DNA from: Streptomyces albus subsp. albus
GTDB taxonomy: Bacteria; Actinomycetota; Actinomycetes; Streptomycetales; Streptomycetaceae
Length of the DNA: 64,000 nt
Reading direction: 5' to 3'
Assembly (NCBI RefSeq): GCF_000725885.1
Contig: NZ_JODR01000022.1
Location: 122,077 to 186,076 of the forward strand
Part shown: positions 19,997 to 35,279 of the stretch, in pieces
How the letters are laid out: the number at the start of each line of letters is the position of its first letter
How positions within the stretch are numbered: the stretch's first letter is position 1
The notes under the pieces: generated by a model
Seen by the model: the letters and a program-made list of their open reading frames with translations, nothing else
The model's database searches: none
Told to the model about the DNA's origin: nothing
Translations under genes and position numbers: made by a program

Positions 19997-20033
19997 CATA
20001 GTTCATTGTGAGTATAGGTAACAATGAACTATG
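19997..20033. promoter_or_regulatory. perfect inverted repeat, likely MarR operator
   Basis: CATAGTTCATTGT (19997-20009), 11-base spacer, ACAATGAACTATG (20021-20033). The arms are exact reverse complements. The site is A/T-rich in a very GC-rich context and lies between divergent marR and exporter genes, where both promoters must be. On the minus strand the spacer reads TATACT, a possible -10 element for marR. Confidence 0.8.
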
Positions 20034-20207
20034 CTCCGGGAGCCTGGGAGTCCGGAAGACGATCCGGAGGACCTGGCACAGGCTGCGCGCCTCGGCGAGG
20101 CCACGAGGATTCGCCCCTGTGGTACCGCCAGTGCTCCGCGCCAGGCCACCGCCAGGTCTTCCGTCCCACCCGGACTACACAGCCGCATCCGACCCCGAGG
20201 GAGCCCC

Positions 20208-22265
20208 TTGCACCATGCAGCGCCCGGCTGGACGCCGTCACCGAAGGACCCGCTGAGCCCCGAACAGCCCGCGCAGGTACGCCGCATCCTGCGCCTGTTC
20301 CGCCCCTACCGCGGGCGTCTGGCCCTGGTCGGGCTCTTGGTGGCCGCCTCCTCGCTGGTCTCCGTCGCCTCGCCCTTCCTGCTGCGCGAGATCCTCGATG
20401 TGGCCATTCCCCGGCAGCGCACCGGTCTGCTGTCCCTGCTCGCCCTGGGGATGATCGCCACCGCCGTCATGACCAGCGTCTTCGGCGTGCTCCAGACGCT
20501 GATCAGCACGACGGTCGGCCAGCGGGTCATGCACGACCTGCGCACCGGCGTGTACGCCAAGCTCCAGCGGATGCCGCTGGCCTTCTTCACCCGGACCAGG
20601 ACCGGCGAGGTCCAGTCCCGTATCGCCAACGACATCGGCGGCATGCAGGCCACCGTCACCTCGACGGCCACCTCGCTCGTCTCCAACCTCACCAGCGTCG
20701 TGGCGACCGTGGTGGCCATGCTGGCTCTCGACTGGCGGCTGACCCTCGCGTCGCTGGCGCTGCTGCCCTTCTTCGTGTGGGTGAGCCGCCGGGTGGGGCG
20801 CGAGCGCAAGCGCATCACCACCGAGCGGCAGAAGCAGATGGCCTCGATGTCCGCCCTCGTCACCGAGTCCCTGTCGGTCAGCGGCATCCTGCTCGGCCGC
20901 ACCATGGGCAGGTCCGACTCGCTCACCAGGAACTTCGCCGACGAGTCCGAACGGCTCGTCGGCCTCGAAGTGCGCTCCAGCATGGCCGGGCGCTGGCGCA
21001 TGGCCACCATCGGCATCGTCATGGCGGCCATCCCCGCGCTGCTCTACTGGACGGCCGGCATGCTCACGCAGTTCGGCGGCCCGGCCTTCTCCATCGGCAC
21101 CCTCGTCGCCTTCGTCACCCTCCAGCAGGGCCTGTTGCGGCCGACCGTCTCCCTGCTGACGACCGGTGTGGAGATGCAGACCTCCATGGCGCTCTTCCAG
21201 CGCATCTTCGAATACCTCGATCTGCCGGTCACCATCACCGAACCGCAGCGGCCCGTCACCCTGCAGACGGTGCGGGGGGAGGTCCGTTTCGAGAACGTCG
21301 ACTTCTCCTACGACCGGATCGACGGGCACGACCAGGGCGACGGACACGACCGGAGCGACGGAAGCGGCCGGACCGGCGCTCAGTCCGGCAGCGGCAGGGC
21401 CGAGGCCGCGGACCGGAACGGCCCGGCCGGAGAGCGCCGGCGGCTCACCCTGCGCGGTATCGACCTAAGCGTCCCGGCCGGCAGCAGCCTCGCCATCGTC
21501 GGCGCCACGGGTTCTGGCAAGAGCACCCTGAGCTATCTGGTGCCCCGCCTCTACGACGTGACCGGCGGCAGGGTCACCCTCGACGGTGTGGACGTGCGGG
21601 AACTCTCCTTCGCGACCCTCTCCCAGGCGGTGGGCGTGGTCTCCCAGGAGACGTATCTCTTCCACGCCACCGTCGCCGAGAACCTGCGCTTCGCCAAGCC
21701 GGACGCCACCGACGGTGAACTGCGCGCAGCGGCGCGGGCCGCGCAGATCCACGACCACATCGCCGCCCTGCCCGACGGTTACGACACGCTCGTGGGGGAG
21801 CGCGGCTACCGTTTCTCGGGAGGGGAGAAGCAGCGTCTGGCCCTGGCGCGCACCATCCTGCGGGACCCACCGGTGCTGATCCTGGACGAGGCCACCAGTG
21901 CGCTCGACACGCGCACCGAACGCGCCGTCCAGGAGGCCATCGACGCGCTGTCCGCCGGCCGCACGACCCTCACCATCGCGCACCGCCTCTCCACCATCCG
22001 GGACGCCGACCAGATCGTCGTCCTGGACGGCGGCCGGATCGCCGAACGCGGCACCCATGAGGAACTTCTGGCGGCCGGCGGGAAGTACGCCGCTCTGGTG
22101 CGGCGTGACAGCGAGACCGCGTCAGGCGGCGGCGCACTGGAGGTGGTCCGCACCGGCGCCGAGGACGGGGGAGCCGGCCGTGAGCCGATGCGTCCCGAGC
22201 ACAGGGCGAAGGGCGGCGCGGAACTCTCTCCCGGAGGCGGGACGGCCGACGTGGCGGTCGGCTGA
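20208..22265 (+). CDS. ABC exporter (membrane and ATPase domains fused)
   Basis: 685 residues from TTG 20208, chosen because GAGGGAG (20196-20202) lies five bases upstream. An ATG at 20031 in the same frame would add 59 atypical residues and falls inside the operator, so a leaderless longer form cannot be excluded. Six membrane helices occupy about residues 25-320. The ATPase domain has Walker A GATGSGKS, signature FSGGEKQR, Walker B VLILDEATS and H-loop AHR. An unusual hydrophilic Gly/Asp/Arg-rich insert of about 40 residues sits just after FENVDFSYD. It probably works as a homodimer. Divergent marR and the following diketopiperazine operon suggest product export or self-protection. Confidence 0.9.
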   Translation: MHHAAPGWTPSPKDPLSPEQPAQVRRILRLFRPYRGRLALVGLLVAASSLVSVASPFLLREILDVAIPRQRTGLLSLLALGMIATAVMTSVFGVLQTLISTTVGQRVMHDLRTGVYAKLQRMPLAFFTRTRTGEVQSRIANDIGGMQATVTSTATSLVSNLTSVVATVVAMLALDWRLTLASLALLPFFVWVSRRVGRERKRITTERQKQMASMSALVTESLSVSGILLGRTMGRSDSLTRNFADESERLVGLEVRSSMAGRWRMATIGIVMAAIPALLYWTAGMLTQFGGPAFSIGTLVAFVTLQQGLLRPTVSLLTTGVEMQTSMALFQRIFEYLDLPVTITEPQRPVTLQTVRGEVRFENVDFSYDRIDGHDQGDGHDRSDGSGRTGAQSGSGRAEAADRNGPAGERRRLTLRGIDLSVPAGSSLAIVGATGSGKSTLSYLVPRLYDVTGGRVTLDGVDVRELSFATLSQAVGVVSQETYLFHATVAENLRFAKPDATDGELRAAARAAQIHDHIAALPDGYDTLVGERGYRFSGGEKQRLALARTILRDPPVLILDEATSALDTRTERAVQEAIDALSAGRTTLTIAHRLSTIRDADQIVVLDGGRIAERGTHEELLAAGGKYAALVRRDSETASGGGALEVVRTGAEDGGAGREPMRPEHRAKGGAELSPGGGTADVAVG

Positions 22266-22390
22266 GGCCGCGCCGTTCCGCCGTCCGCCACGCGCTTTTC
22301 CCTGGTGGACGGACGCACCGGCATGCACGGACGGCGTGCCATTTGTGGTGCCTGAGCGACGGGAGAGGCCGCCGCCATGGTCCGAATACG

Positions 22391-22403
22391 GTAATCGCAT
22401 TAC
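22391..22403. promoter_or_regulatory. short palindrome upstream of the diketopiperazine operon
   Basis: GTAAT CGC ATTAC, perfect 5-bp arms, A/T-rich, 130 bp before the TTG start of the AlbA-like gene. It lies in the 267-bp gap that should hold the operon promoter. It may be an operator or chance. Confidence 0.35.
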
Positions 22404-22532
22404 TGAGAACCTACTGAGAGCGGGGGATCTGCGGCCGGGCGCTGGTGACTGTCATACAAGGGGACTGTCAGAGTTCCCTCTGGCGAAAGTCAGGACAGAA
22501 AAGAAGAAGCTCTCCGTTTTCAGGAGGTTCAC

Positions 22533-23087
22533 TTGACGTCCACCAGTCGTTCACCCGATTTTATTCGCACGATGCGCACGAGAAGCGTGGTCAGGGACTA
22601 CGCGGAACGTCCGGTCGCACGTGAATCGGTCGAAGAGTTACTGGATGCCATGCTGGCCGCTCCGACCGGCGGAAATCTCCAGGCGTGGGCATTCGTCGCC
22701 ATCCAGAACCCCCGCAATCTGAAACTCCTCCGGGCCTTCGCACCGGGCATCATTCAGCCACCGCCGCTGATCGTCGCGGCCTGTTTCGACCGTTCCCGCG
22801 CCGTCAAGAATGACGGAACGTTCTGGGACGAGGGACTGCTGTGTGTGGCAATGGCCGTGGAGAACCTTCTCCTCGCCGCACATTCCATGGGGCTCGGCGG
22901 TTGCCCGGTCGCCAGCTTCCGGCGGGAATCCGTGCAGGCGCTGCTGGAACTGCCCAAGCACGTGGAGCCGCTGCTCCTCGTACCCATCGGATATCCGGCG
23001 CGCCCCCTGGCGTCGCCGCCCCGCCGCGACCGAAGCGAGGTGATCAGCTATGAGTTCTGGGGAAACCACGACGCGACCCGTGGCTGA
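22533..23087 (+). CDS. AlbA-like cyclic dipeptide oxidase subunit (nitroreductase family)
   Basis: 184 residues from TTG 22533. This start is fixed by a perfect AGGAGG (22522-22527) five bases upstream. FMN-nitroreductase signatures are RTRSVVRDYAERPV and AAPTGGNLQAWAFV, with MGLGGCP further on. In the albonoursin pathway AlbA and AlbB together form the cyclic dipeptide oxidase that introduces alpha,beta-double bonds into cyclodipeptides. The neighbouring AlbB-like and cyclodipeptide synthase genes make the same role likely here. Codon 36 is TTA (22638-22640), the rare leucine codon read by bldA tRNA in Streptomyces, so expression may be developmentally timed. The 3' end overlaps the next gene by 38 bp. 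Confidence 0.9.
   Translation: MTSTSRSPDFIRTMRTRSVVRDYAERPVARESVEELLDAMLAAPTGGNLQAWAFVAIQNPRNLKLLRAFAPGIIQPPPLIVAACFDRSRAVKNDGTFWDEGLLCVAMAVENLLLAAHSMGLGGCPVASFRRESVQALLELPKHVEPLLLVPIGYPARPLASPPRRDRSEVISYEFWGNHDATRG
22638..22640 (+). promoter_or_regulatory. TTA codon in the albA-like gene (bldA-type control)
   Basis: In-frame TTA, residue 36 of the AlbA-like protein. In Streptomyces TTA is decoded only by the bldA tRNA, which matures late in growth, so such codons delay translation of secondary-metabolism genes. Confidence 0.8.
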
Positions 23088-23385
23088 GGAGTTGGTGCTC
23101 CTGGCGGCCTACCTGCTCAGCTGCGGCAGGGGCCTTCTGGAGGAGCCGCAGGCCTACGGACCGCTGCGCTGCCTGGACGCGGGACGCAGGGTCCTCACGC
23201 TGGTCGAGCAGGCGGGACTCCATGACGAGCGGCTCTCCGCCGTCCGCGCCCGCCTGGACGACTGCATGTGCGGCCCGATGGAATACCGGGACCTTCCGGG
23301 ATTCCTCGACGAGGTGTGCGGGAGCCTGATCACCGCGCTGAAGGATTCGGAGCTGATCTCCGCTTCCACGGGCCACCAGGAGTGA
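23050..23385 (+). CDS. AlbB-like cyclic dipeptide oxidase partner (DUF6092-like)
   Basis: 111 residues from ATG 23050, inside the end of the albA-like gene (38-bp overlap). This is a small helical protein with LVLLAAYLLSCGRGLLEEP, AYGPLRCLDAGRRVLTL and LITALKDSELIS. The length and YGPLRxLDA pattern fit AlbB/DUF6092 proteins, which co-assemble with AlbA into the active cyclic dipeptide oxidase. The overlap with albA and the following synthase start (GTGA overlap) imply coupled translation in a fixed ratio. Confidence 0.85.
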   Translation: MSSGETTTRPVAEELVLLAAYLLSCGRGLLEEPQAYGPLRCLDAGRRVLTLVEQAGLHDERLSAVRARLDDCMCGPMEYRDLPGFLDEVCGSLITALKDSELISASTGHQE

Positions 23386-24218
23386 ACCGCCGCTGTTCCT
23401 TCGGCGACGCGGGGCAGGAGCAGGGGCCCGGGCGTCCGGAGGGCGAAGCGGCCCGCGCCCCCGATGGCCGTCTCTTCCTCGAAGAGGATTCCGCGGAGCC
23501 TTTCGAGGTGCATCCCGTCACCCGGTCCTGCCGGCGCATCTTCGAGCACGGCGACCATCTGCTGATCGGGGTCAGCGCGGGGAACTCCTATTTCAGCGCC
23601 GAGCGCATGAGTACGCTCCTCCACTGGGCTCAGTCGCGGTTCGACCGTGTCGATGTCCTCTACGTCGATACGCACATCGACACCATGCTCGAAGCGCAAG
23701 GCAGCTCACCGGCTCAGGCGGCGAAACACGCCAGGTCCCGGCTGAAAGATCTGCGCCGGAGAATACGCCGGGCCGTGGAGAACGCGGCAGGTTCCTCTGC
23801 CGCCATCACGGTCCGCTCGTTATCCGAATGCACTTCGCTGGCCGGTTACACCGCGGTCCAGCCGGCGATCGACCGGCTGCTGGCGCAGGACACCTACCTC
23901 ATGCAGGCGTGCCGGGAACAGGTGGCCGCCCTTCTGGGGGAAGGCGCCGGAAAACCCGAGGATCTGGACGCCGATTCGGCGGTGTTCAAAGCAGGAATGG
24001 CGTACATCCGCGCCGAATTCCCCTTTCTCTTGAACACCCCTCAGATCGTGGGCGCCCGCTCCTCGGTGACCTGCTACCACAAGCTGATGCCGGTCGTGGA
24101 AGCGGTCTACCGGGGCCGGGAAGAAGCCACCAGGCACCCTCAGCAAGGCTTCATCGTCGTGCGGCCCACCGACCGGAACCCCCGAGAGCGGGAGATGACC
24201 AGTGCCCCAGGAGCATGA
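23382..24218 (+). CDS. tRNA-dependent cyclodipeptide synthase (NYH type)
   Basis: 278 residues from GTG 23382, overlapping the albB-like stop by four bases. It condenses two aminoacyl-tRNAs into a 2,5-diketopiperazine. The family core starts at HLLIGVSAGNSYFS, with the nucleophile Ser65 and Asn68 (AlbC Ser37 and Asn40). Tyr208 and Glu212 lie in AYIRAEFPF (AlbC Tyr178, Glu182), and Tyr232-His233 in VTCYHKL (AlbC Tyr202-His203). This places it in the NYH subfamily. The first pocket keeps Leu and Gly as in AlbC (LIGVS), while the AlbC Leu185 position appears to be Phe, so a hydrophobic or aromatic first residue is likely. It has an N-terminal extension of about 28 residues. Codon 147 is TTA (23820-23822). 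Confidence 0.93.
   Translation: MNRRCSFGDAGQEQGPGRPEGEAARAPDGRLFLEEDSAEPFEVHPVTRSCRRIFEHGDHLLIGVSAGNSYFSAERMSTLLHWAQSRFDRVDVLYVDTHIDTMLEAQGSSPAQAAKHARSRLKDLRRRIRRAVENAAGSSAAITVRSLSECTSLAGYTAVQPAIDRLLAQDTYLMQACREQVAALLGEGAGKPEDLDADSAVFKAGMAYIRAEFPFLLNTPQIVGARSSVTCYHKLMPVVEAVYRGREEATRHPQQGFIVVRPTDRNPREREMTSAPGA
23820..23822 (+). promoter_or_regulatory. TTA codon in the cyclodipeptide synthase gene
   Basis: In-frame TTA, residue 147 (in VRSLSEC). This is the second rare bldA-type codon of the operon, giving two checkpoints for late expression. Confidence 0.8.
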
Positions 24219-24219
24219 C

Positions 24220-24918
24220 GTGATCGAGTACGACAGGATCGCGGAGAGCTATCTCGCAGTCGAACGCGTCTTCAGCACCTATCGCCACCTGGTGGAACTT
24301 CCCTCGTTCCTGGAGGCGCTCGGTCCGGCCGAGGGACTTTCGGTGCTCGACGCCGGCTGCGGCACGGGGGCGTACGCCCGTCTGCTCAGGCAGCGGGGCG
24401 CCGGCCGGACGCTGGGCGTGGACTCCTCACCGGCCATGATCGAGGTGGCGCGGGAATTGGAGAGAAAGGATCCCGTGGGCGCCGAATACGCGGTGCACGA
24501 CATCGCGGAAATGCCGGTGCTCGGTTCTTTCGATGTCGTCGTGGCCGTCGCCGTGCTCCACTACGCGGACAGTACGGCCACTCTCGCCCGGATGTGCGAG
24601 CGCACGTACGCCAACCTCAAGAGTGGAGGACGGCTTCTGGCCTACGTCGCCAACCCCGCACTCCCTCCGGGAAGCGCGCAGATGAACGGACTCGTGGTCT
24701 CGCGCCCCGACGACCCGGCCGACGGCGACACCTACCATCTGACCATTCCGACCACCCCGCCGACCACGCTGCCGGCCCGGTACTGGCGTCGGGGGACCCT
24801 TGAGGAGGCGCTCACGGCCTCCGGCTTCCAGGACGTGTCCTGGGAGCCCCTCCGCGGCATCCCGGACGGCGGCATCCATCCGCCGATCAACCTGCTGCTC
24901 AGCGCGCGGAGGAACTGA
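24220..24918 (+). CDS. SAM methyltransferase of the diketopiperazine operon
   Basis: 232 residues from GTG 24220, six bases after AGGAG. GTG 24202 (238 residues), with GGGAG upstream, is the alternative. Motif I is VLDAGCGTGAYARLL, then GVDSSPAMIEVAREL, VHDIAEMP and VVVAVAVLHY, a Methyltransf_11/25 fold. It is the last gene of the operon, starting directly at the synthase stop. In Nocardiopsis-type pathways such enzymes N- or O-methylate the dehydrogenated cyclodipeptide; whether N or O is methylated here cannot be told. A strong hairpin follows. Confidence 0.85.
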   Translation: MIEYDRIAESYLAVERVFSTYRHLVELPSFLEALGPAEGLSVLDAGCGTGAYARLLRQRGAGRTLGVDSSPAMIEVARELERKDPVGAEYAVHDIAEMPVLGSFDVVVAVAVLHYADSTATLARMCERTYANLKSGGRLLAYVANPALPPGSAQMNGLVVSRPDDPADGDTYHLTIPTTPPTTLPARYWRRGTLEEALTASGFQDVSWEPLRGIPDGGIHPPINLLLSARRN

Positions 24919-24936
24919 CGAGGAAGGCGCACCCAC

Positions 24937-24975
24937 GCCGTGCCCGACCGCGGATCCGCCGCGGCCGGGCACGGC
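24937..24975 (+). terminator. strong terminator hairpin of the diketopiperazine operon
   Basis: GCCGTGCCCG (24937-24946) pairs exactly with CGGGCACGGC (24966-24975), and inner CCGCGG repeats (24948-24953, 24959-24964) can extend the structure. It lies 18 bp after the methyltransferase stop and before the convergent VOC gene. Confidence 0.8.
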
Positions 24976-25010
24976 ACGGTTGTGTCCGGAACCGACCGGG
25001 CGGAGGGCGT

Positions 25011-25394
25011 CTAGCGGCGCGTCGGCTGGGGCTTGGGTTTCGGCGGGACGAACACGCAGAACTCGTTGCCCTCGGGATCGCTGAGGACATCCCACTCGAT
25101 CTCCTCGTCGCGGGAACGCACCAGTGTGGCGCCCATCGACACCAGCTCCCGGGCGTCCCCATAGACATCCAGATGCATCCGGTTCTTGCTTCTTTTGGGC
25201 TCGTCTACCGGGTTGATCCAGATGAGCGGACCCGATCCGTTCGGGTCGTAGATGGGCACCGGCCAGGTGCGGGGCCGTTCCGGGGAGCCGGCCGGGGGCT
25301 GGCGCCGGGCGTAGCCCAGTGCCCGGCACCACCAGTCGGCGAGTGCCTGATGATCGACGGCGTCGAGCGCGAGGTCCTTGAAACGTGCGGGCAT
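25011..25394 (-). CDS. VOC-family (glyoxalase-like) protein
   Basis: 127 residues from ATG 25394 (MPARFKDLALDAVDHQALAD). The betaalphabetabetabeta pattern of the vicinal oxygen chelate fold is visible: FKDLALDAVDHQALADWW, PLIWINPVDE, NRMHLDVYGD, and DPEGNEFCVF at the end with the usual metal Glu. Such proteins range from glyoxalases to bleomycin-type resistance proteins and dioxygenases; this one resembles the uncharacterised Glyoxalase_6 subtype. It is convergent with the diketopiperazine operon and separated from it by the terminator, so a shared role is not implied. Confidence 0.8.
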   Translation of the reverse strand: MPARFKDLALDAVDHQALADWWCRALGYARRQPPAGSPERPRTWPVPIYDPNGSGPLIWINPVDEPKRSKNRMHLDVYGDARELVSMGATLVRSRDEEIEWDVLSDPEGNEFCVFVPPKPKPQPTRR

Positions 25395-25506
25395 GAGGGG
25401 AGCGTACGGCCGCAGCCGCCCGGTTGGCGGCACGGAACGCGCGGTGTCACCACCGGGCCGCCCGACGGACCGAACCGGCCGGCCGGACGGCTGCGGGGAC
25501 GCCCCG

Positions 25507-26826
25507 TCACCGGTAGAGCAGGTACTGCCTCCGGGTGCGTTCGAAGGCGCGTACCTCATCGCGCCAGGCGTCGGTGATCTCCCGCAGCGCGGCACCCGCG
25601 TCGAGCATCTCCCGCAGCCGGGGGGAGCCCGACAGCTTGTCGATCCAGTACGGCCGTTCGGTGTCCGCGTCCTTCCGCCAGGCGAAGCCCTCGTACCGCA
25701 TGGCCTCCCGCAGCATGGCCACCGCCGTCGGCACCGCCTCGTAGCGCCTCGGATCGGTCACCAGCAGCTGGACGCCGGCGCAGGTCTTGCCCTGGTGCTT
25801 GCTGAAGGTCGGGACGAAATAGCCCTCACGGAAGCGGACGCCGGGCAGCCGCAGGGCGTTGAGCCGGTCGCTGTAGTGGTGGTCGAGGAAGGGCGCCCCG
25901 ACGAACTGGAACGGCTGGGTGGTGCCCCGCCCCTCCGACAGGTTCGTCCCCTCGAAGTACCCGGTGCCCGCGTAGACGGTGGCCGTGTCGGGCGTCGGCA
26001 TGTTGGGGGACGGCGGCACCCAGGGGAGTCCCGTCTGCTGGGCCGTCGCGTCCGGGGACCAGCCGCGTACCCGTACGACCTCCAGATCCACCCTTCCGCC
26101 GGCGCCCTCGCCCGGCAGCAGTTCTCCGTTGAAGTACCGGGCCAGCTCCCCGACCGTCATGCCGTGCTGCTGGATGATCGGTTTGAGGCCGACTCCGGAG
26201 GCGAACTCGGGCGTCAGCAGCGGCCCGTCGGCTCTGCGTCCGATCGGGTTGGGGCGGTCCAGCACGATGAACGAGGCCTTCACATCCCGCGCCGCCACCA
26301 TGGCGTGGTACATCGTCCAGATGTACGTGTAGAAGCGCACCCCGACGTCCTGGATGTCGAAGACGACGGTGTCCACGCCTGCCTTGCGGAAGAGGGAGGC
26401 CATTTTCGCGGCGTCCGCCCCATAGGCGTCGTACACGGTGAGGCCCGTGCGCGGGTCCTGGAACTCGGGTTCGGACTCGCCCGCCTGCGCGCTGCCCCGG
26501 AAACCGTGCTCTGGGCCGAAGACGCCCACGATCTCCAGGCCCTTCTGCGCGGCCATCGAATCGACCACATGGCGGGCGTCGCGCAGTACGCCCGTGGGGT
26601 TGCTGACGACGCCGGCCTTCCGGCCCCGCAGGAGGCGCCAGCCGTCCGCAGCGGCGGCATCGGCCCCCGGCGTCACTCCGCGTCCCACCGCACGGGCGTC
26701 GGCGGGAGCGGGACCCGGGGGCGGTGCCGTCGGCGCCGCGGCGGCGGACCGGCCGAGCAGTGGGGAGGCGAGGGCGGCGGCGGTACCACCGGCCATCAGC
26801 GAACGGCGAGAGGGCATGGCGGCCAT
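25507..26826 (-). CDS. NamZ-type exo-beta-N-acetylmuramidase (DUF1343), TAT-exported
   Basis: 439 residues from ATG 26826 (ATG 26817 also possible). The signal MPSRRSLMAGGTAAALASPL is of twin-arginine type. The DUF1343 domain has GRKAGVVSNPTGV, GVFGPEHGFRG (conserved Glu-His of the active site), DIQDVGVRFYTYIWTM, LDRPNPIGG-like RPNPIGR and SEGRGTTQPF. NamZ proteins (family GH171) remove terminal N-acetylmuramic acid from peptidoglycan fragments during cell-wall recycling. A Pro/Ala-rich linker follows the signal. It is divergent from the macrodomain gene. Confidence 0.88.
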   Translation of the reverse strand: MAAMPSRRSLMAGGTAAALASPLLGRSAAAAPTAPPPGPAPADARAVGRGVTPGADAAAADGWRLLRGRKAGVVSNPTGVLRDARHVVDSMAAQKGLEIVGVFGPEHGFRGSAQAGESEPEFQDPRTGLTVYDAYGADAAKMASLFRKAGVDTVVFDIQDVGVRFYTYIWTMYHAMVAARDVKASFIVLDRPNPIGRRADGPLLTPEFASGVGLKPIIQQHGMTVGELARYFNGELLPGEGAGGRVDLEVVRVRGWSPDATAQQTGLPWVPPSPNMPTPDTATVYAGTGYFEGTNLSEGRGTTQPFQFVGAPFLDHHYSDRLNALRLPGVRFREGYFVPTFSKHQGKTCAGVQLLVTDPRRYEAVPTAVAMLREAMRYEGFAWRKDADTERPYWIDKLSGSPRLREMLDAGAALREITDAWRDEVRAFERTRRQYLLYR

Positions 26827-27006
26827 GAGGAACCGTCCTTCCAGCGTCCGGGCACGGCGCGAGGCGGGCGAGGCGGTACGTCAAGCCGAGCGGTACGACA
26901 AGCCGCGCGGTGGGGCAAGCTAATACGAACCCGCCGGTGCCCACCAGGGGGCACGCGGCGGGCATCTCGTGTGCACACCGGTGCGGGGCGCGTCAGGATG
27001 GGGCGC

Positions 27007-27519
27007 ATGCCGACGAACATCACCTTGGTGCAGGGCGACATCACCGAACAGGACGTCGACGCTGTTGTGAACGCGGCCAATTCCTCGCTGCTGGGCGGCG
27101 GAGGCGTGGACGGTGCCATCCACCGCAAGGGCGGCCCCGACATCCTCGCCGAGTGCCGCGAGCTGCGCGCCACGCAGTACGGACGCGGGCTCCCCACCGG
27201 CCAGGCCGTCGCCACCACGGCGGGACGGCTGCCGGCCCGCTGGGTCATCCACACCGTGGGTCCGGTCCACCAGGGCGCCGGCAGCGACCCGGCACCACTC
27301 GCGTCCTGCTACCGCGAGTCCCTGCGCGTCGCCGACCGGTTGGGTGCCCGGACAGTGGCCTTCCCGGCCATCTCCACAGGCGCCTACCGCTGGCCGCTGG
27401 AGGAGGCGGCCCGAGTGGCCGTCGAGACGGTACGCGCGGCGGACACCGAGGTCGAAGAGGCCAGGTTCGTACTCTTCGATCAAAGGGCCTACGCGGCGTT
27501 CGCCGCACAGATCGGCTGA
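27007..27519 (+). CDS. macrodomain protein, O-acetyl-ADP-ribose deacetylase type
   Basis: 170 residues from ATG 27007; ATG 26998 is also in frame. The MacroD/YmdB signature is complete: ITLVQGDITEQDVDAVVNAA, NSSLLGGGGVDGAIHRKGG and AFPAISTGAYRWP. It binds ADP-ribose and probably hydrolyses O-acetyl-ADP-ribose or removes mono-ADP-ribose from proteins, in the cytoplasm. There is no ADP-ribosyltransferase nearby. It is convergent with the questin-oxidase-like gene. Confidence 0.92.
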   Translation: MPTNITLVQGDITEQDVDAVVNAANSSLLGGGGVDGAIHRKGGPDILAECRELRATQYGRGLPTGQAVATTAGRLPARWVIHTVGPVHQGAGSDPAPLASCYRESLRVADRLGARTVAFPAISTGAYRWPLEEAARVAVETVRAADTEVEEARFVLFDQRAYAAFAAQIG

Positions 27520-27619
27520 CGGGGGCCGCCGGACCGCTCGGTACGGTGGCACCGCGCTCCGGAGCCGGTGGAACCGCCGGCGCACAAACCCACTCCCCGG
27601 GCGGGCCGGTGTCACCGAG

Positions 27620-28714
27620 TCACATACCGGGCTCGATCAGTTCGGTCGCCCGGAGGACCGCCGCCACGGCCTGCGGGTCCTCACCGCCCTGCCGGGCGGC
27701 CACGTCCAGGGCCGTGTCCGCGAACTTGATCGCGTGTTCGTCCCCGTGCGCCGCCGCACGGGCGAAGACTTCCTGCGGGGCGAGTCCGCCGCCGGAGGCA
27801 ACGGGACGGGCCAGCCGGGGAGCGTAGACGGCCGTGACGGCGGCGCTCGCCGCCCAGGCCGCGTCCGCACTGGCGGCCCACAGCTCGCGCGGCAGCGCCG
27901 GCAGGACGCGCAGGACGGCGTTGGGCGCCGTCGCCGCGTGCACCAGCATCACCGGCTCGCCATGCGCATGGGTGGCGTACCGGTGGGTGGCCACCCGTAC
28001 GATCTCCGCCAGGTCGGCGCGGGCCTGCTCCGGGTCGTGTGTGCCGCTTCCGTTCTGTGTACCGGCGGCTGTGGTGCGGGGCCTGCGGGGGAGCGCGGTG
28101 ATGCGGCCCAGGCGCTCGCGGATGCCGCCGCTCTGCTCGGCGATGAGCGGCACGCTCTCGTACCCGTCCGTCGCGGAGGCGGCCCCGGGCAGCGGTTCGA
28201 GGCCGTCCGGCAGCGTGCTGTGCCGCGCCGCCCAGTAGCCCAGCGCGTGGGCCAGCTCCGCGCGGCGCGCCTCGGTCTCGCCGCCGTCGACGAGCAGGGC
28301 GCGCACGGCATGGCCGGTGCGGATCACCGGATGGGTGGCCGCACCGGAGATCCCCGGCAGCAGACGCGGCCACCACAGGGCCAGGACATCCCGCCAGGGA
28401 CGTTCGGTCATCTGCCGGGTGAAGTAGTGCGTCCAGTCCGCCAGCCGCCCAGGATCGCCCAGCGCCGTCCGCCAGTCCTCGTCGGTGAGGGGCGAGTCCG
28501 GGCGGGGCATGTCCTCCAGTTTGTCGGAATAGCCGTCGATCCAGCGGTGCACGGCTGCGGCCTGACCGTGCCGCACGAGTGCTTCGACGGCCATCGGCGC
28601 GTGATTGGAGAGCCAGCCCTCACGCTCGGGGCCGCTGGCGTGGAGACGCTCCAGCGCCTCGTCCAGCGTCCCGGACGTGTCGGGGCTGCCCGCGTCCTTC
28701 GTCGTGGTGTCCAT
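27620..28714 (-). CDS. questin oxidase-like protein (DUF4243)
   Basis: 364 residues. The N-terminal pattern LDEALERLHASGPE, then WLSNHAPMAVEALVRHGQ, RWIDGYSDKL and DWTHYFTRQM matches questin oxidase-like proteins, named for the fungal Baeyer-Villiger-type enzyme. Later HPVIRTGHAVRALL and HAATAPNAVLRVLPAL keep the conserved histidines (NHxPM, HxVIRTGHAVRA, HAATAP) that are thought to form the active site. The bacterial substrate is unknown. It is convergent with the macrodomain gene and upstream of nothing obviously related. Confidence 0.8.
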   Translation of the reverse strand: MDTTTKDAGSPDTSGTLDEALERLHASGPEREGWLSNHAPMAVEALVRHGQAAAVHRWIDGYSDKLEDMPRPDSPLTDEDWRTALGDPGRLADWTHYFTRQMTERPWRDVLALWWPRLLPGISGAATHPVIRTGHAVRALLVDGGETEARRAELAHALGYWAARHSTLPDGLEPLPGAASATDGYESVPLIAEQSGGIRERLGRITALPRRPRTTAAGTQNGSGTHDPEQARADLAEIVRVATHRYATHAHGEPVMLVHAATAPNAVLRVLPALPRELWAASADAAWAASAAVTAVYAPRLARPVASGGGLAPQEVFARAAAHGDEHAIKFADTALDVAARQGGEDPQAVAAVLRATELIEPGM

Positions 28715-28924
28715 ACCGGGACGCTACGAGGGGGCGCCACGGGCGGAAACAGGCCCAGGACCGAGTTACGGCTGCCGCGGGACTTAGGACCGGCGCACGG
28801 GCCGACCTGTACGCGGGCTGACCTGTGCGCGCGGGCCGCCTGCCGTGCGGGGCGACGGTCGCACGGGTCGACGGGCGTGCGGGCCGACCGGCGTGCGCCC
28901 CGGTGGCGGACCTGGCTGCGTGCG

Positions 28925-28966
28925 CCGGGCCGTACGCCACGCTGCCCGGCGCGGCGTACGGCCCGG
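28925..28966 (-). terminator. terminator hairpin of the ABC ATPase gene
   Basis: CCGGGCCGTACGCC (28925-28938), 14-base loop, GGCGTACGGCCCGG (28953-28966): a perfect 14-bp stem, starting 11 bp past the stop of the minus-strand ATPase gene at 28977. Confidence 0.8.
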
Positions 28967-28976
28967 TGGGCGGAGG

Positions 28977-29783
28977 TCAGCGCCGGGTGCCCGAGCGGGC
29001 CAGCCAGCGGCCGTCCTGCCGGCTCACCTCGATGGGGCGGCCGAAGCACTGCGTCATCAGCTCGCCGGTGAGCACGTCGGAGACGGGCCCCTGCGCCCCG
29101 ACACGGCCCTCGCGCAGCAGCAGGGCATGACTGGTGGTCGGCGGCAGCTCCTCCAGGTGGTGGGTCACCGTCACGGTCGCCAGCGTGGGACGGTCCGCGG
29201 CCAGCCGGCGCAGCGCGTCGATCAGGTCCTCGCGGGAGGGCAGGTCCAGGGCGTTGAAGGGCTCGTCCAGCAGGAGCAGGGAAGGGGACGGCATCAGGGC
29301 GCGGGCGATCAGGATGCGGGCACGCTGGCCGCCGGAGCAGACCCCGAAGGGCCGGTCGGCCAGCTCCTTGCACCCCAGCTCGGACAGCAGCTCGCTCGCC
29401 AACTGCCGTGTCGCATCGTCGTACTTGCGCCACAGCGGCTGGACCGTACCCGTCGCACCGGTCAGGACGACCGTGTGCGCCGTCGCGTCCTGCGGCACCC
29501 GCTGCGAGGTGGAGACGTGACCGATGTGGGCGCGCAGCTCCCGCACGTCCACCCGGCCCAGCCGGTTGCCGAGCACCTCCACGCTGCCGGTGGTGGGGTG
29601 CATCACGGCGCCGATCAGTTTCAGCAGTGTCGTCTTGCCCGCCCCGTTGGCCCCCAGGAGAGCCCAGTGCTCGCCGGCCCGCACCGACCAGTCGATGCCG
29701 TCGAGGATGAGCTGGTCCGAGGTCGTGCGGCGGACGCTGACCCCCTCCAGCGCGGCGACGTGGCGGGGCGACGAGTTGTTCAT
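28977..29783 (-). CDS. ABC transporter ATP-binding protein (ModF/YlmA-like)
   Basis: 268 residues with all ATPase motifs: Walker A GANGAGKTT, Q-loop HVSTSQRV, signature CSGGQRAR (LSGGQ-like), Walker B LLLLDEPFNALD and H-loop THHLEELP. The region between Walker A and signature is typical of the ModF/YlmA subgroup, which usually lacks a dedicated permease gene. No permease lies beside it, so it is an orphan ATPase whose partner or target is unknown. A strong terminator follows its 3' end. Confidence 0.88.
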   Translation of the reverse strand: MNNSSPRHVAALEGVSVRRTTSDQLILDGIDWSVRAGEHWALLGANGAGKTTLLKLIGAVMHPTTGSVEVLGNRLGRVDVRELRAHIGHVSTSQRVPQDATAHTVVLTGATGTVQPLWRKYDDATRQLASELLSELGCKELADRPFGVCSGGQRARILIARALMPSPSLLLLDEPFNALDLPSREDLIDALRRLAADRPTLATVTVTHHLEELPPTTSHALLLREGRVGAQGPVSDVLTGELMTQCFGRPIEVSRQDGRWLARSGTRR

Positions 29784-29997
29784 GGCGGGGCCTCCCGGAC
29801 CTGCGGCGGAATGCGGCGGGCGGGCCGGGCGGCTCCGCGCGCCGAGCGGGCGCCCAGACTAGCTGTAACAGGCAGCGGTCCGCGTCGGCGTCTCACCACC
29901 GGAGACGGCCGGCGACTCCCAGGTGCCGAGGCGGACGGTCACCACCTCACCCGGGGCTCCGGTGCCCACACGGCGGACGCCCGCCAGACGCGAGGCT

Positions 29998-30588
29998 TCA
30001 CCAGTCGGTGGGCGTTTCGGCGTACCGTCCCACCGACGGCAGCCAGCACAGGACGACCGCAGCTACGGCCAGCACGGCAGCGCACAGGCTGGTCGCGTGC
30101 AAGGTGACCGGTGCGGCGTCGCGCAGGATGAACACGTGCGGGACGGCGGCGGCCGTCAGCGCCACGAGCGTCAGCGCCAGGCGGGCCCACCGGTTTCCGG
30201 TACGGGCGGACAAGGCGCACAGCAGCAGGGCGACGGCGAGTACGGCGGCCAGAAGGGCGCGGGCCGACATGGTGCCCTGCCAGTCGGTGACGACGCTGTC
30301 CCAGGCGGTGCCTGCCATCCGTGCGATGTCGGCGGGGCGCGTACCCGAGGGGAGCCCCACGGCGGACGGGTCACTCGCGACGGCGTTGCGGACATTTTCG
30401 TCCGCGAGATCCTTGCCGCCCAGGTACACCATCAGCGCCCCCAGTGCGCTGGAGAGCGCGGACAGCACGGCGGTGCACAGCATGGCGACCAGTGGGACGG
30501 GTCTGCGTGTCGGCGCTCCCGGTGGTCCTCCGGCGTCCGGGAGGCCGGACGGGGAGCCGGTGGCGGTGGTGGTCGGGGAGTGGCTCAC
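29998..30588 (-). CDS. four-helix membrane protein, hypothetical
   Basis: 196 residues. Four hydrophobic segments are visible: PLVAMLCTAVLSALSSALGA, RALLAAVLAVALLLCALSA, LALTLVALTAAAVPHVFIL and SLCAAVLAVAAVVLCWLP. A disordered Gly/Pro/Thr-rich N-terminus precedes them. Between helices 1 and 2 is an extracellular-looking loop of about 50 residues. I recognise no family. It lies alone between the ABC ATPase and lutC. Confidence 0.65.
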   Translation of the reverse strand: MSHSPTTTATGSPSGLPDAGGPPGAPTRRPVPLVAMLCTAVLSALSSALGALMVYLGGKDLADENVRNAVASDPSAVGLPSGTRPADIARMAGTAWDSVVTDWQGTMSARALLAAVLAVALLLCALSARTGNRWARLALTLVALTAAAVPHVFILRDAAPVTLHATSLCAAVLAVAAVVLCWLPSVGRYAETPTDW

Positions 30589-30759
30589 GGGCGGGTGTCT
30601 CCTTGTACGACACGTGAGGGGCAGGTTGATCGACTCGACCCTTCCACGGTGCCGCCCGGTGAACCACCCGTTCCGGTCAGTAACTTGAAGAACACATTCC
30701 TCAACGCCCCCAAGTGCGGGGAGCGTCGGTAAGCCGTCGGCACACGGGCCCGCGGCCGG

Positions 30760-31425
30760 TCAGAGAAGGAACCCCTCCTCGGAGACCAGGATCACGTCCA
30801 GGGTGCGCGGCCCGTGGACGCCCTCCACCCGGTTCAGCTCGATGTCGCTGGTCGCCGAAGGGCCCGAGATCCACGTCTGGGGCCGGGCCGGATCCAGCCG
30901 TTCCAGCGCCTGCGGCACCGACCCGACGACCTGCTCGGGAACCCGCACCACACAGAGGTGATGATCCGGCACCAGCGTGATCCGGCGGCGCCCCTGGTCC
31001 CGGGATGCGTCCAGCACCAGCGTGCCCGTCTCCGCCACGGCGACGGCGCACCCGGTCACCACGCTGCCCACGGCGTCCAGGGCGTGCGAAGGCAGCTCCG
31101 CCGAATCGTGGACCCGCTCGACGCCCGCGGGCAGCCAGGAGTCCGGCAGCCCGGCGGGCACCACCACGCTGCGCGAGCCCTGCCGGGCCAGCAGCCGTGC
31201 GATCGTCTCCGGCAGCGCCGAGGGCACACAGTGGTGCACCCGGGCCCGGTAGTCGGCCAGGTTCTCCGCCAGCAGACGTGCCGTCTCGCGAGGGTCGCGG
31301 TCGCCGTGCACCCGCAGATAGTCGCGGGGGACCGGCACGTCCTCGGGCCGCTCGGTGCGCGGGACGTCCGCCAGGGCACGGCGCACCCGGCCCAGCACCG
31401 TCTCACGGCTGCTCGGGCTGCTCAT
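30760..31425 (-). CDS. lutC: lactate utilization protein C (LUD domain)
   Basis: 221 residues from ATG 31425, with a perfect GGAAGGAGG upstream. The LUD domain is seen in the start SSRETVLGRVRRALADV, the middle VVVPAGLPDSWLP and GCAVAVAETGTLVLDASRDQ, and the end TWISGPSATSDIELNRVEGVHGP, the family signature. LutC works with LutA and LutB in the oxidation of L-lactate to pyruvate. The start lies 23 bp inside the end of lutB, so translation is coupled. It is the last gene of the operon. Confidence 0.93.
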   Translation of the reverse strand: MSSPSSRETVLGRVRRALADVPRTERPEDVPVPRDYLRVHGDRDPRETARLLAENLADYRARVHHCVPSALPETIARLLARQGSRSVVVPAGLPDSWLPAGVERVHDSAELPSHALDAVGSVVTGCAVAVAETGTLVLDASRDQGRRRITLVPDHHLCVVRVPEQVVGSVPQALERLDPARPQTWISGPSATSDIELNRVEGVHGPRTLDVILVSEEGFLL

Positions 31426-33094
31426 CTCCGCCTCCTTCCGTCCGGCTGCCACCGGCCCGACCGCCCGGCCGCCGCCCGCCTCCGTCCGGGCCGCCCCCGC
31501 TGTGCCGCCCGTCCGCTCCGGTGCGACCGCTCTGCTCTCGCGGGACGGTGCCGCCGCTCCGCGCTCCTCGGCCGGTGCCGCGCTCCCGCTGGTCCGGGCC
31601 GGTGCCCGTGGCGCCGCCTCGGGTGCGGCGCCACCAGTCCCGGAAGGACTCCGGCGGCACGCGCGGCACATCCCTGGTGTCCGTCCAGGCGCTGCCCGGG
31701 CCCGGGAGCCGGCGCGGCACCAGCCGCCGGGCCCGGGAGGCCAGCCGCTCACCGGCCCGCAGCGCACCGGGATGGTCGAACGCCCACGTGGCCGCCCGCA
31801 TGGCGGCCCGTTCCGCGGCGTGGCCTTTGGCGGGCTGCACCGTCGTGCGCTGCCCCCGCACCGTCGCGGTACCGCCCTGCACCACGCGCTCCCTCAGGTG
31901 CACCAGCACCTCCGGAATGTCGATCGCCACCGGGCACACCTCGTAGCAGGCTCCGCACAGCGACGACGCGTACGGCAAGGACGCGTCCAGACCCGTCTCC
32001 AGACTGTCCAGCTGCGGGGTGAGGATGGCGCCGATCGGCCCCGGATAGGGCGAGCCGTAGGCATGACCGCCCGCCCGCTCGTAGACCGGGCACACATTGA
32101 GACAGGCGGAGCAGCGGATGCAGCGCAGCGTCTGCCGGCCCACCTGGTCGGCCAGCGTGTCGGTACGGCCGTTGTCCAGCAGCACCAGATGGAAGGCGCT
32201 CGGGCCGTCCCCGTCGGTGGTGCCCGTCCACGTCGAGGTGTACGGATTCATCCGCTCCGCCGTGGACGAACGCGGCAGCAACTGGAGGAACACCTCGAGG
32301 TCCCGCCACGTCGGCACGACCTTCTCGATGCCGACGACCGAGATCAGCGTCTCCGGGAGCGTCAGACACATCCGGCCGTTGCCCTCGGACTCCACGACGA
32401 CCAGCGTGCCGCTCTCGGCGACCATGAAGTTCGCCCCCGAGATGCCCACTTTCGCGCGGAGGAACTTCTCGCGCAGATGCAGCCGGGCGGCTTCCGCCAG
32501 CTCAGCCGGGTCGTCCGACAGCCCCTCCGGCGCGGCACGCCCCCACCGTCCCATCCGGTCCTGGAAAATCTCCTGGATCTCGCCCCTGTTGCGGTGGATG
32601 GCGGGCACCAGGATGTGCGACGGGCGGTCGTCGCCCAGCTGCACGATCAGCTCCGCCAGGTCGGTCTCGTACGCGGCGATCCCGGCGCGCTCCAGCGCCT
32701 CGTTGAGACCGATCTCCTGGGTGGCCATCGACTTGACCTTGACCACCTCACGCTCGCCGGTCTCCCGCACCAGTCGCGTGACGATGTCGTTGGCCTCCTG
32801 GGCGTCCGCCGCCCAGTGCACGATTCCGCCGGCATCGGTCACCGACTGTTCCAACTGCTCCAAATAGTGGTCGAGATGGCGCAGCGTACGGTCCTTGATG
32901 TGTGCTCCTGCCTCGCGCAGCGCCGCCCAGTCCGGCAGTTCGGCCACCGCACCCGCCCGCTTGTCGCGGATGGTGTGGGTCGCGTGCCGCAGATTGCGGC
33001 GCAGCCGTGCGTCCCGTGTGGAGGCTTCGGCCGCCTCCGGAAACGTCGGCATCCCCACGTACGTGACACTCGAGGCGTTCGTCCGTCCGTTCAC
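31403..33094 (-). CDS. lutB: lactate utilization iron-sulfur protein B
   Basis: 563 residues from GTG 33094, with GGGAGG six bases upstream; it overlaps the lutA stop by four bases (GTGA). The N-terminal LUD domain (VKVKSMATQEIGLNEALE, AKVGISGANFMVAESGTLVV) is followed by two 4Fe-4S motifs (CIRCSACLNVCPVY and CGACYEVCPVAID). The C-terminal tail of about 60 residues is Gly/Arg/Thr-rich and longer than in Bacillus LutB. It transfers electrons in the LutABC L-lactate dehydrogenase complex. Confidence 0.94.
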   Translation of the reverse strand: MNGRTNASSVTYVGMPTFPEAAEASTRDARLRRNLRHATHTIRDKRAGAVAELPDWAALREAGAHIKDRTLRHLDHYLEQLEQSVTDAGGIVHWAADAQEANDIVTRLVRETGEREVVKVKSMATQEIGLNEALERAGIAAYETDLAELIVQLGDDRPSHILVPAIHRNRGEIQEIFQDRMGRWGRAAPEGLSDDPAELAEAARLHLREKFLRAKVGISGANFMVAESGTLVVVESEGNGRMCLTLPETLISVVGIEKVVPTWRDLEVFLQLLPRSSTAERMNPYTSTWTGTTDGDGPSAFHLVLLDNGRTDTLADQVGRQTLRCIRCSACLNVCPVYERAGGHAYGSPYPGPIGAILTPQLDSLETGLDASLPYASSLCGACYEVCPVAIDIPEVLVHLRERVVQGGTATVRGQRTTVQPAKGHAAERAAMRAATWAFDHPGALRAGERLASRARRLVPRRLPGPGSAWTDTRDVPRVPPESFRDWWRRTRGGATGTGPDQRERGTGRGARSGGTVPREQSGRTGADGRHSGGGPDGGGRRPGGRAGGSRTEGGGDEQPEQP

Positions 33095-33843
33095 AGGGGG
33101 GCCTCCCTCGTGCTCGCCAGGATCTCCGCCAGATGCACGGGCCGCACCCGCGAGCCGGCACGGGACAGCGTGCCCCCGATGTGCATCAGACAGGAGTTGT
33201 CCACCGTGCACACCGACGACGCTCCCGTCTTCTCGATGTGCCGCACCTTGTCGGCGCCCATGGCCGACGAGACGGCCGCGTTCTTGACGGCGAACGTGCC
33301 GCCGAAACCGCAGCACTCCTCGGCGCCCCCCAGCTCCCGCAGCTCCAGCCCCTCCACCTGCTCCAGCAGCTTCCTGGGGCGCTCACCCAGGCCGAGCATG
33401 CGCAGGCCGTGGCAGGTCGGGTGGTAGGTGACCGTGTGGGGGTAGTAGGCCCCGACATCGGTGACCCCCAGGACGTCGACCAAGAACTCCGTCAGCTCCC
33501 AGGTGCGGGGCACCAGGCGCTCCGCAGCCCGGGCCAGAGCCTGGCCCCGGCCCTCGGCGGCGGCCTTCGCCCCGATCCGTGGATAGTTCTCCCGCACCAT
33601 GGCCGCACACGACCCGGACGGTACGACGATGTGGTCGTAGCCCTCGAAAGCGGCGGCACAGCGGTGCACCAAGGGCTCGGTGGCGTGCCGGTAACCGGTG
33701 TTGAACTGCGGCTGGCCGCAGCACGACTGCTCCTGGGGGAAGTCGACCTCCACGCCCAGGCGCTCCAGCAGCGTCACCACGGCCTGACCCGTGCGCGGAT
33801 ACAGCGCGTCGTTGATACAGGTGACGAAGAGCGCTACGCGCAC
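33091..33843 (-). CDS. lutA: lactate utilization protein A (CCG domains)
   Basis: 250 residues from GTG 33843, with AAGGAGG upstream. Two cysteine-rich CCG domains are clear: SCCGQPQFNTGYRHA and ECCGFGGTFAVKNA, plus HPTCHGLRMLG. LutA carries Fe-S or haem-type redox ligands and forms the first subunit of the L-lactate oxidation complex. It is first in lutABC, all genes coupled by short overlaps. The upstream 320-bp gap must hold the promoter; I saw no clear LldR-type operator there. Confidence 0.93.
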   Translation of the reverse strand: MRVALFVTCINDALYPRTGQAVVTLLERLGVEVDFPQEQSCCGQPQFNTGYRHATEPLVHRCAAAFEGYDHIVVPSGSCAAMVRENYPRIGAKAAAEGRGQALARAAERLVPRTWELTEFLVDVLGVTDVGAYYPHTVTYHPTCHGLRMLGLGERPRKLLEQVEGLELRELGGAEECCGFGGTFAVKNAAVSSAMGADKVRHIEKTGASSVCTVDNSCLMHIGGTLSRAGSRVRPVHLAEILASTREAPL

Positions 33844-34163
33844 GGCGCCTCCTTCCGTCCCGGCTCTCGCGTCCTGGTCCAGTCGGCCCTCGCGGGGACC
33901 CCGTCGGGGTGCGGACTGTGCGGTCCGCTCCCGCGACGGATGATCATCTCGGGAACATACTCTCGCAGCCGCACACCGTCGGCACCAAGAGCGCCCCGTA
34001 CGGAGCCCCCGGGCACACCCGCTCGCGCGGCGCGGTGCGGCACGAAGCGGGGGTGACGCTGCTGTCGGCCCCCAGAGAACGCACTGGATGGGACCGGAAG
34101 TCGCACCGGACGGGTGCCGCCGTGGCACATCAGTCCCGCGGAGGGGCACCGCGTTACTCAGGA
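33844..34163. other. 320-bp intergenic region upstream of lutABC
   Basis: It lies between the lutA start and the 3' end of the monooxygenase gene. It must hold the lut promoter. The only symmetric element I see is GATGATCATC at 33939-33948, a perfect 10-bp palindrome about 100 bp upstream of lutA. No gene is supported. Confidence 0.35.
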
Positions 34164-35279
34164 TCAGGCTGCCGGGTTCCTCGTCAGACCGGTGCCGGTG
34201 TCGGCCGTGACCTCATGGCCGCCTGCCAGCAGCGCCCGGATGTCCCGCACGGCGGCGCGGCCGGCCCGGTTGGCGCCGATGGTGCTGGCGGAGGGGCCGT
34301 ACCCGACCAGATGGACGCGCTCGTCGCGGACCGCGCGGGTGCCCTCCAGCCGGATGCCGCCGCCGGGCTCGCGCAGCCGCAGCGGAGCCAGATGGTCGAT
34401 GGCGGGCCGGAAGCCGGTCGCCCACAGGATGGTGTCCGCCGCAGCCTGGCTGCCGTCGTCCCAGGCCACGCCGTCCTCGGTGACGCGGCTGAACATCGGC
34501 ACCCGCTCCAGCACCCCCCGCTCCCGCGCGCGCCGCATCTCCTCCGTCATCGGCAGCCCTGTCACGGAGACCACACTCTGCGGCGGCAGCCCCTGCCGTA
34601 CCCGCTGCTCGACCAGCGCGACGGCGGCGCGGCCCTCCTCGGGCCCGAAAGGGCCGGCACGGAACAGCGGCGGGCGGCGCGTCACCCATACCGTCTCCCG
34701 CGCCACCTCTGAGATCTCCAGCAGATGCTGCACGGCCGAGGTCCCGCCCCCTACGACGACCACCCGCTTGCCCACGAACGCGTCCGTGTCCGGCCCCCGG
34801 TATCCGGAGGTGTGCAGCTGCCGGCCCCGGAACAGCTCCTGTCCCGGAACCCGGGGCCAGAACGGCCGGTCCCAGGTCCCCGTCGCGTTGATCACGGCAC
34901 GTGCGGCCCAGTCACCCTCCGAAGTCCGCACCAGCAGCCGGCCTCCCCAGCCGGCGTCCCGCACCTCCCGGACGTCCACCGGCCGCCGCACCGACAATCC
35001 GAACCGGTGTTCGTAGTGGGTGAAGTACTCGCCGATCACCTCGGAGGACGGCCGCCCGGGATCGGCGCCGGTCAGCTGCATACCGGGCAGCGCGTGCATC
35101 CCGTGGACCCGGCCGTAGGTGAGGGTCGGCCACCGGAACTGCCACGCCCCACCGGGTGCCGGCGCATGGTCGAGCACCACGAAGTCCTCACCGGGCGTCA
35201 AACCCGTACGCCGCAGGTGGTACGCGCTGGACAGCCCCGCCTGACCGGCGCCGATGACCACGACCTCCACGTTCTCCAT
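34164..35279 (-). CDS. flavin-containing monooxygenase-type NAD(P)/FAD oxidoreductase
   Basis: 371 residues from ATG 35279 (MENVEVVVIGAGQAGLSSA); the frame is open to 35363. The FAD-binding Rossmann motif GAGQAGLS is at residues 10-17, GGAWQFRWPTLTYGRVHGM follows, and the second NADPH-binding motif VVVVGGGTSAVQ is near residue 175. ATGFRPAIDHL near the C-terminus is the FMO/CzcO-type ATG motif. It probably oxygenates a small organic substrate or acts as a pyridine-nucleotide oxidoreductase. It is divergent from yjbQ, 71 bp apart. Confidence 0.87.
   Translation of the reverse strand: MENVEVVVIGAGQAGLSSAYHLRRTGLTPGEDFVVLDHAPAPGGAWQFRWPTLTYGRVHGMHALPGMQLTGADPGRPSSEVIGEYFTHYEHRFGLSVRRPVDVREVRDAGWGGRLLVRTSEGDWAARAVINATGTWDRPFWPRVPGQELFRGRQLHTSGYRGPDTDAFVGKRVVVVGGGTSAVQHLLEISEVARETVWVTRRPPLFRAGPFGPEEGRAAVALVEQRVRQGLPPQSVVSVTGLPMTEEMRRARERGVLERVPMFSRVTEDGVAWDDGSQAAADTILWATGFRPAIDHLAPLRLREPGGGIRLEGTRAVRDERVHLVGYGPSASTIGANRAGRAAVRDIRALLAGGHEVTADTGTGLTRNPAA

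Follow-up and report, generated by a model that had tools for sequence, protein, structure and literature searches.

A 64,000-nucleotide stretch of contig NZ_JODR01000022.1 of Streptomyces albus subsp. albus (the window; positions 122,077 to 186,076, assembly GCF_000725885.1) includes a tight operon of four plus-strand genes at 22533-24918 (Table 1). These code for the two subunits of a cyclodipeptide oxidase (CDO), CDO-A and CDO-B, a cyclodipeptide synthase (CDPS), and an S-adenosylmethionine (SAM) methyltransferase (MT). The CDO-A and CDO-B genes overlap by 38 bp, the CDO-B and CDPS genes by 4 bp (GTGA), and the MT gene begins one base past the CDPS stop codon with an AGGAG sequence six bases upstream. 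All four reading frames are open. Each product matches a family profile far beyond chance: CDO-A matches PF00881 (E 7e-25), CDO-B PF19585 (DUF6092; E 4e-29), CDPS both PF16715 (E 3e-68) and TIGR04539 (E 4e-78), and MT PF13649 (E 3e-19). An earlier note, made from this DNA alone, had described four coupled genes at this place and had read them as a CDPS/CDO pathway of the albonoursin type with an added methyltransferase. The coordinates and both overlaps were confirmed, and the family and solved-structure matches agree with that reading.

Table 1. Coordinates of the operon genes, of selected codons within them, and of the upstream exporter gene (window positions).
Feature	Position	Strand	Basis
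ABC exporter upstream of operon	20031-22265		
Ribosome-binding site AGGAGG of CDO-A	22522..22527	+	read in sequence
CDO-A, FMN-binding CDO subunit, 184 aa, TTG start	22533..23087	+	PF00881, NdasCDO-A/AlbA alignments
TTA leucine codon 36 of CDO-A	22638..22640	+	read in sequence
Codon of CDO-A Gly47 (AlbA Ser54, NdasCDO Ser58)	22671..22673	+	alignments
CDO-B, second CDO subunit, 111 aa	23050..23385	+	PF19585, NdasCDO-B/AlbB alignments
Codon of CDO-B Glu78 (AlbB Gly79)	23281..23283	+	alignments
CDPS, NYH class, 278 aa, predicted cyclo(L-Phe-L-Leu) maker	23382..24218	+	PF16715, TIGR04539, AlbC alignment, residues
TTA leucine codon 147 of CDPS	23820..23822	+	read in sequence
MT (METHYLTRANSFERASE), 232 aa, GTG start, predicted diketopiperazine ring N-methyltransferase	24220..24918	+	PF13649, ToxA/XrdM similarity, AlphaFold model

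The CDPS covers its family profile fully (PF16715, 230 bits, profile positions 1-220 of 220; TIGR04539, 262 bits) and aligns with the solved AlbC (3oqv; E 2e-44) at 41% identity over 215 residues. In this alignment, the pattern SNYEYH at positions 65, 68, 208, 212, 232, and 233 of the CDPS falls on the catalytic residues S37, N40, Y178, E182, Y202, and H203 of AlbC. The earlier note had named the same six residues and the NYH class, and had held that their loss would speak against its proposal; all are retained. Judged by these residues, the CDPS belongs to the NYH subfamily and its catalytic residues are intact.

The substrate pockets of AlbC, which we take to consist of positions 33, 35, 65, 67, 119, 185, 186, and 200 (P1) and 152, 155, 156, 159, 204, 206, and 207 (P2), were mapped onto the CDPS via the alignment, and read LGLVLFLT and QALEKMP, respectively. 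The same pair occurs in Table 2 of Gondry 2018, where P1 is marked as taking Phe and P2 as taking Leu (PMC5816076), and identity with that row extends to 15/15 mapped positions, Phe at AlbC position 185 (Phe215 of the CDPS) included. In Table 1 of that paper, cyclo(Phe-Leu) (cFL) is the main product of one enzyme alone, CDPS 103 from Streptomyces sp. HPH0547, for which 91% cFL, 7% cyclo(Phe-Met) (cFM), and traces of others are given (PMC5816076). Taken together, the two tables suggest that the row is that of CDPS 103. The CDPS of Nocardiopsis potens, mapped likewise, reads LGVVLFFT/QDFDKMP, which is another published row (Phe; Phe/Met) and fits the published products of that enzyme, cFM and cyclo(Phe-Phe) (cFF); this served as a check on the list of pocket positions. 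Among 37 CDPS homologs, the 15 pocket letters recurred only in P0001 (97% identical; a cluster of 17 sequences named from S. albus), the fragment P0002 being unscorable. Alignment with characterised synthases, which the earlier note had proposed as a check, predicts Phe (P1) and Leu (P2) as the two residues, and cFL is a well-supported prediction for the first product. The note had correctly read Phe at AlbC position 185 and had seen in it a hint of a novel product. This idea was rejected, because the whole pocket equals a published Phe/Leu row, assigned to an enzyme that makes 91% cFL, and Phe at this position is therefore no pointer to a new product.

Among solved structures, CDO-A matched NdasCDO-A (9exv; E 1e-70) and AlbA (8uc3; E 6e-55) with 64% and 51% identity over the aligned parts, while CDO-B matched only NdasCDO-B and AlbB (57% and 50%, respectively). 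In these enzymes, a Cys residue of subunit A carries the FMN, and a Tyr residue of subunit B is the base (PMC11760959, PMC11055893). The FMN-attachment residue Cys104 is conserved in CDO-A, as are Arg17, Arg21, and Asn48 at the flavin, and the base is conserved in CDO-B as Tyr36. The assignment of these two genes to an oxidase of the AlbAB/NdasCDO type is well supported by the alignments.

One position departs from the characterised enzymes. The highly conserved serine that assists the tyrosine, Ser54 in AlbA and Ser58 in NdasCDO, is replaced in CDO-A by Gly47, and the AlbA alanine mutant S54A has been reported to lose activity about 62-fold. Among 106 CDO-A relatives, this site is occupied by Ser in 65, Ala in 21, and Gly in 18, with a gap in two (Gly/Ala in 39/106), and all 13 nearest relatives have Gly (P0060-P0072, of which P0060 is the window's own cluster). 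By alignment, Gly also stands at AlbA-54 in the N. potens DSM 45234 CDO. As this enzyme was active and of broad spectrum in E. coli (PMC7487605), the serine is dispensable. When the N. potens CDPS and CDO were co-expressed, liquid chromatography-high-resolution mass spectrometry gave peak areas of 2.17E5 and 5.70E5 for delta-cFL and lower areas, 1.59E4 and 9.23E4, for delta-delta-cFL (PMC7487605); a slow second dehydrogenation is therefore possible for the CDO of the window.

The residues at AlbA-54 and AlbB-79 were compared in AlbAB, NdasCDO, the window, and the CDO loci read, with identical loci counted once and L063 left out owing to a gap. AlbB-79 is Gly in 8/11 cases with Ser at AlbA-54 (these eight include L062, whose CDO-A is interrupted by stops) and in 0/4 cases with Gly or Ala there. 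It is Glu in the window (CDO-B Glu78) and in N. potens; S. uncialis pairs Gly with Ala, hence Glu is not obligatory. The cases are few and related, and the apparent pairing is a lead only. Residue AlbA-54 may tune how broad a range of substrates is accepted, or how the second oxidation proceeds. It is Ala in the entries named S. rimosus and S. aidingensis. The CDOs of these two species have been classed as narrow-spectrum, for strains that were not matched to the Ala entries (PMC7487605).

The closest solved relatives of the MT were ToxA of Burkholderia glumae (5jdz; E 8e-31) and 8rdl (E 6e-27), the latter deposited as 'ToxA protein' under a title that names the xenorhabdin methyltransferase XrdM. 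An AlphaFold model of the MT (pLDDT 90.7, pTM 0.89, 22 sequences) was compared with solved folds by Foldseek. The first 11 matches were all ToxA/XrdM, with TM scores of 0.77-0.85 on model length, and general N- and C-methyltransferases ranked below them in score. ToxA methylates ring nitrogens, and an N-methyl lactam is possible for the xenorhabdins. Since cFL has no hydroxyl group, a ring nitrogen or a carbonyl oxygen is a plausible target; of the two the nitrogen is favoured, and the MT is predicted, on the basis of sequence and modelled fold, to be probably a ring N-methyltransferase. The earlier note had left the product as N- or O-methylated. Methylation was retained, and the target is narrowed to a favoured ring nitrogen, since there is no tyrosine hydroxyl on cFL and ToxA/XrdM are the closest solved relatives of the MT. 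Proteins of about 480-505 aa (P0007-P0010), recognised as CDPS-MT fusions from their Pfam lists and length and with pocket motifs close to those of the window CDPS, tie this type of MT to CDPSs, as does a CDPS-MT fusion of S. uncialis (L002, 5992-7509).

The end product of the operon is probably 1-N-methylalbonoursin. In the proposed pathway, the CDPS would load Phe-tRNA in P1 and Leu-tRNA in P2 and release cyclo(L-Phe-L-Leu). CDO-A/CDO-B, with FMN on Cys104 of the former and Tyr36 of the latter as the base, would then remove Cα-Cβ hydrogens in two steps, one for the Phe side and one for the Leu side, and the ToxA/XrdM-like MT would methylate the ring nitrogen of the Leu side, perhaps after the first dehydrogenation and before the second. 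This compound was named as a Streptomyces albus metabolite in the title of a 1984 reference (in the reference list of PMC6471054). It has also been isolated from two further strains, Streptomyces sp. SMS636, where antibacterial activity was reported (PMC6471054), and Streptomyces sp. FXJ7.328 (PMC3705386). The authors of the latter study proposed N-methylation ahead of the second dehydrogenation as an explanation for the E double bond (PMC3705386), and methylation between the dehydrogenations would likewise explain why the Leu double bond of the known compound is E. The expected product is thus already known from S. albus and the enzymes are from known families; no paper linking genes to 1-N-methylalbonoursin was found in the open-access PubMed Central literature, which was examined in part. 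A more speculative extension, for which we see only a modest chance, is that oxidases with a rebuilt Ser-Tyr pair (Gly at AlbA-54, Glu at AlbB-79) form a subclass with a slow second dehydrogenation. The MT would then act on the ring nitrogen between the oxidations and fix the E geometry as a stereochemical switch, the CDPS-MT fusions channelling the intermediate.

Several observations weigh against 1-N-methylalbonoursin as the end product. CDO-A is without the serine whose replacement is costly in AlbA; the second dehydrogenation of cFL by the N. potens enzyme is weak, at about 1.1E5 compared with 7.9E5 for the first (PMC7487605); the N. potens CDPS makes mainly cFM and cFF, not cFL (PMC5816076); and one relative of the MT may act on oxygen. 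The last point concerns P0041, which is 61% identical to the MT; of the 22 MT relatives listed, no other comes from N. dassonvillei. Two diketopiperazine methyltransferases, Ndas_1145 and Ndas_1149, come into question as its counterpart. According to Skinnider 2018, relatives of Ndas_1149 occur only in Nocardiopsis and those of Ndas_1145 more widely in Actinobacteria, so that P0041 is probably Ndas_1145, which has been described as methylating a diketopiperazine carbonyl oxygen and likely a ring nitrogen as well (PMC4519757, PMC4159871). The N. dassonvillei cluster itself was not located among the genus of G392 (6 genomes) nor its family (250, then 341 genomes). Were the MT to form a lactim ether in the manner of Ndas_1145, the operon would give a neihumicin-type O-methyl albonoursin. 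We regard this outcome as unlikely: the closest solved relatives of the MT are ToxA and XrdM, the compound reported from S. albus is N-methylated, and the equation of P0041 with Ndas_1145 is itself indirect.

Two other outcomes appear more improbable still, and to a similar degree. One, in line with the novel product suggested in the earlier note, is that another, perhaps new, methylated cyclodipeptide is made, for example from cFM or from a Tyr-containing precursor; minor products accompany cFL in the output of CDPS 103 (PMC5816076), and such CDOs and MTs are promiscuous (PMC4159871), but the CDPS pocket is identical to the row assigned to the 91% cFL producer. The other is that the CDO has little activity, or that the operon is not expressed, and only cFL or N-methyl-cFL builds up. 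The glycine at AlbA-54 would be consistent with the former and the TTA codons in two of the genes, which suggest strict developmental control, with the latter. Against this outcome stand the four open frames, the activity of the N. potens CDO with the same glycine, and the frequency of Gly or Ala at this site among relatives. Formation of 1-N-methylalbonoursin from cFL therefore remains the preferred interpretation.

The distribution of the genes was examined in 392 sampled Streptomyces genomes, the window's own included. A CDPS match was found in 105 (E 1e-30), a CDO-A match in seven (E 1e-30), and an MT match in three (E 1e-45), and at those thresholds the window's own genome alone combines CDO, CDPS, and MT at a single site. 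The MT of G219 is on a different contig from its CDO and CDPS, and in G271, which is not among the CDO matches, the MT lies near a distant CDPS (32%). The gene order of the window recurs in N. potens (L001), while in S. uncialis (L002) CDO-A and CDO-B are accompanied by the CDPS-MT fusion. In Goodfellowiella (L004), the MT precedes the CDO on the strand that does not carry the CDPS, and a single 9-kb contig of G696 bears all four gene types. No relative was found in the viral contigs searched. The source genome has a second CDPS (L049; G000 contig C33 10000-29900, at about 7452-10825) with pockets VGIPMFFC (P1) and ATVARLP (P2), which adjoins a squalene/phytoene-synthase-like gene and a methyltransferase. 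The frame of this CDPS enters a methyltransferase start and then stops, and the remaining methyltransferase domain is in another frame.

The GC content of the operon is 66.9%, compared with a mean of 71.1% (sd 2.1) for 2386-bp segments, and is the third lowest of 309 overlapping segments. Among 11 genes checked, only CDO-A and CDPS have TTA codons, one each; in Streptomyces, a gene with TTA usually depends on the bldA tRNA. The N. potens and S. uncialis operons showed no TTA where they align with the window operon, and the codon is therefore no conserved feature. A promoter scan returned 0 promoter-like sites, and a terminator scan two terminator-like sites against 1.3 expected.

A pathway-specific role for the upstream ABC exporter was considered and rejected. 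Its matches at 72-78% identity adjoin a MarR-like gene in 24/24 loci of relatives (L065-L088), and none of these loci, a few kb each, includes CDO-A, CDPS, or MT. In the CDPS loci of relatives, most with ~1.5 kb of flank, no ABC match above 100 bits was listed besides the window copies L007/L008. Ten relatives, chosen from those with an exporter match, were read for about 11 kb past the exporter, and CDO-A, CDPS, and MT were absent from that distance in 10/10. A homolog of the window gene 34164-35363 lies 0.4-1.6 kb from the exporter in 6/10 relatives and 11.9 kb away in the window; in three other relatives a homolog of 31403-33316 lies 1.9-7.4 kb from the exporter, and one relative has neither. 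By this comparison, the operon sits in a block that is lacking at this place in those relatives. Window positions 22266-34163, with the low-GC operon, interrupt the neighbourhood of exporter and 34164-35363 seen in the six. A gene for a NamZ-type exo-beta-N-acetylmuramidase (25507-26826; PF07075, PF20732) faces the operon.

The operon is real, intact, and mostly explained by known families. If the proposed pathway is correct, genes are gained for a metabolite that was cited from S. albus in 1984 and has since been obtained from further Streptomyces strains, once with antibacterial activity, and a product is proposed for a type of cluster whose product was given as unknown in a 2018 list. The useful part is that a long-known compound is thereby linked to these genes in a way that can be tested. 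Four small genes also make two questions testable, namely which ring atom is modified by this type of MT and how a CDO functions without the assisting serine.

The operon resembles the albA-albB-albC cluster of S. noursei in its overlapping CDO-A and CDO-B genes, an NYH CDPS, retained catalytic residues, and cFL as the first product (here predicted), but the identities are 41-51%, AlbA Ser54 is Gly in the window, and an MT gene follows the CDPS. To our knowledge, the S. noursei cluster has no such MT gene. CDPS 103 of HPH0547, a strain that we take to belong to S. albus, was compared by pocket row only, through the row that the published tables appear to assign to it. The CDPS/nitroreductase/methyltransferase cluster of that strain is the one whose product was given as unknown in 2018 (PMC5767969). 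The nearest operon of the same order with published tests is that of N. potens DSM 45234 (CDPS 62, CDO-Npot45234), which has the same four genes at 73/61/58/69% identity and Gly at AlbA-54, and differs in the CDPS pockets given above. The nocazine cluster of N. dassonvillei (Ndas_1145-1149) likewise has a CDO, a CDPS, and diketopiperazine methylation, and NdasCDO is the closest solved relative of CDO-A. That cluster has two methyltransferases and gives Phe/Tyr products (PMC4159871), whereas the window operon has one MT and a predicted Phe/Leu product. A second, tyrosine-directed O-methyltransferase of the Ndas_1149 type is not in the window operon, which is flanked by the ABC exporter, a glyoxalase-like gene, and the NamZ gene; hence the operon is not classed as nocazine-type. 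ToxA of toxoflavin and XrdM of xenorhabdin biosynthesis are closest to the MT by both sequence and fold, though at 28-33% identity, and they act on other substrates in other pathways.

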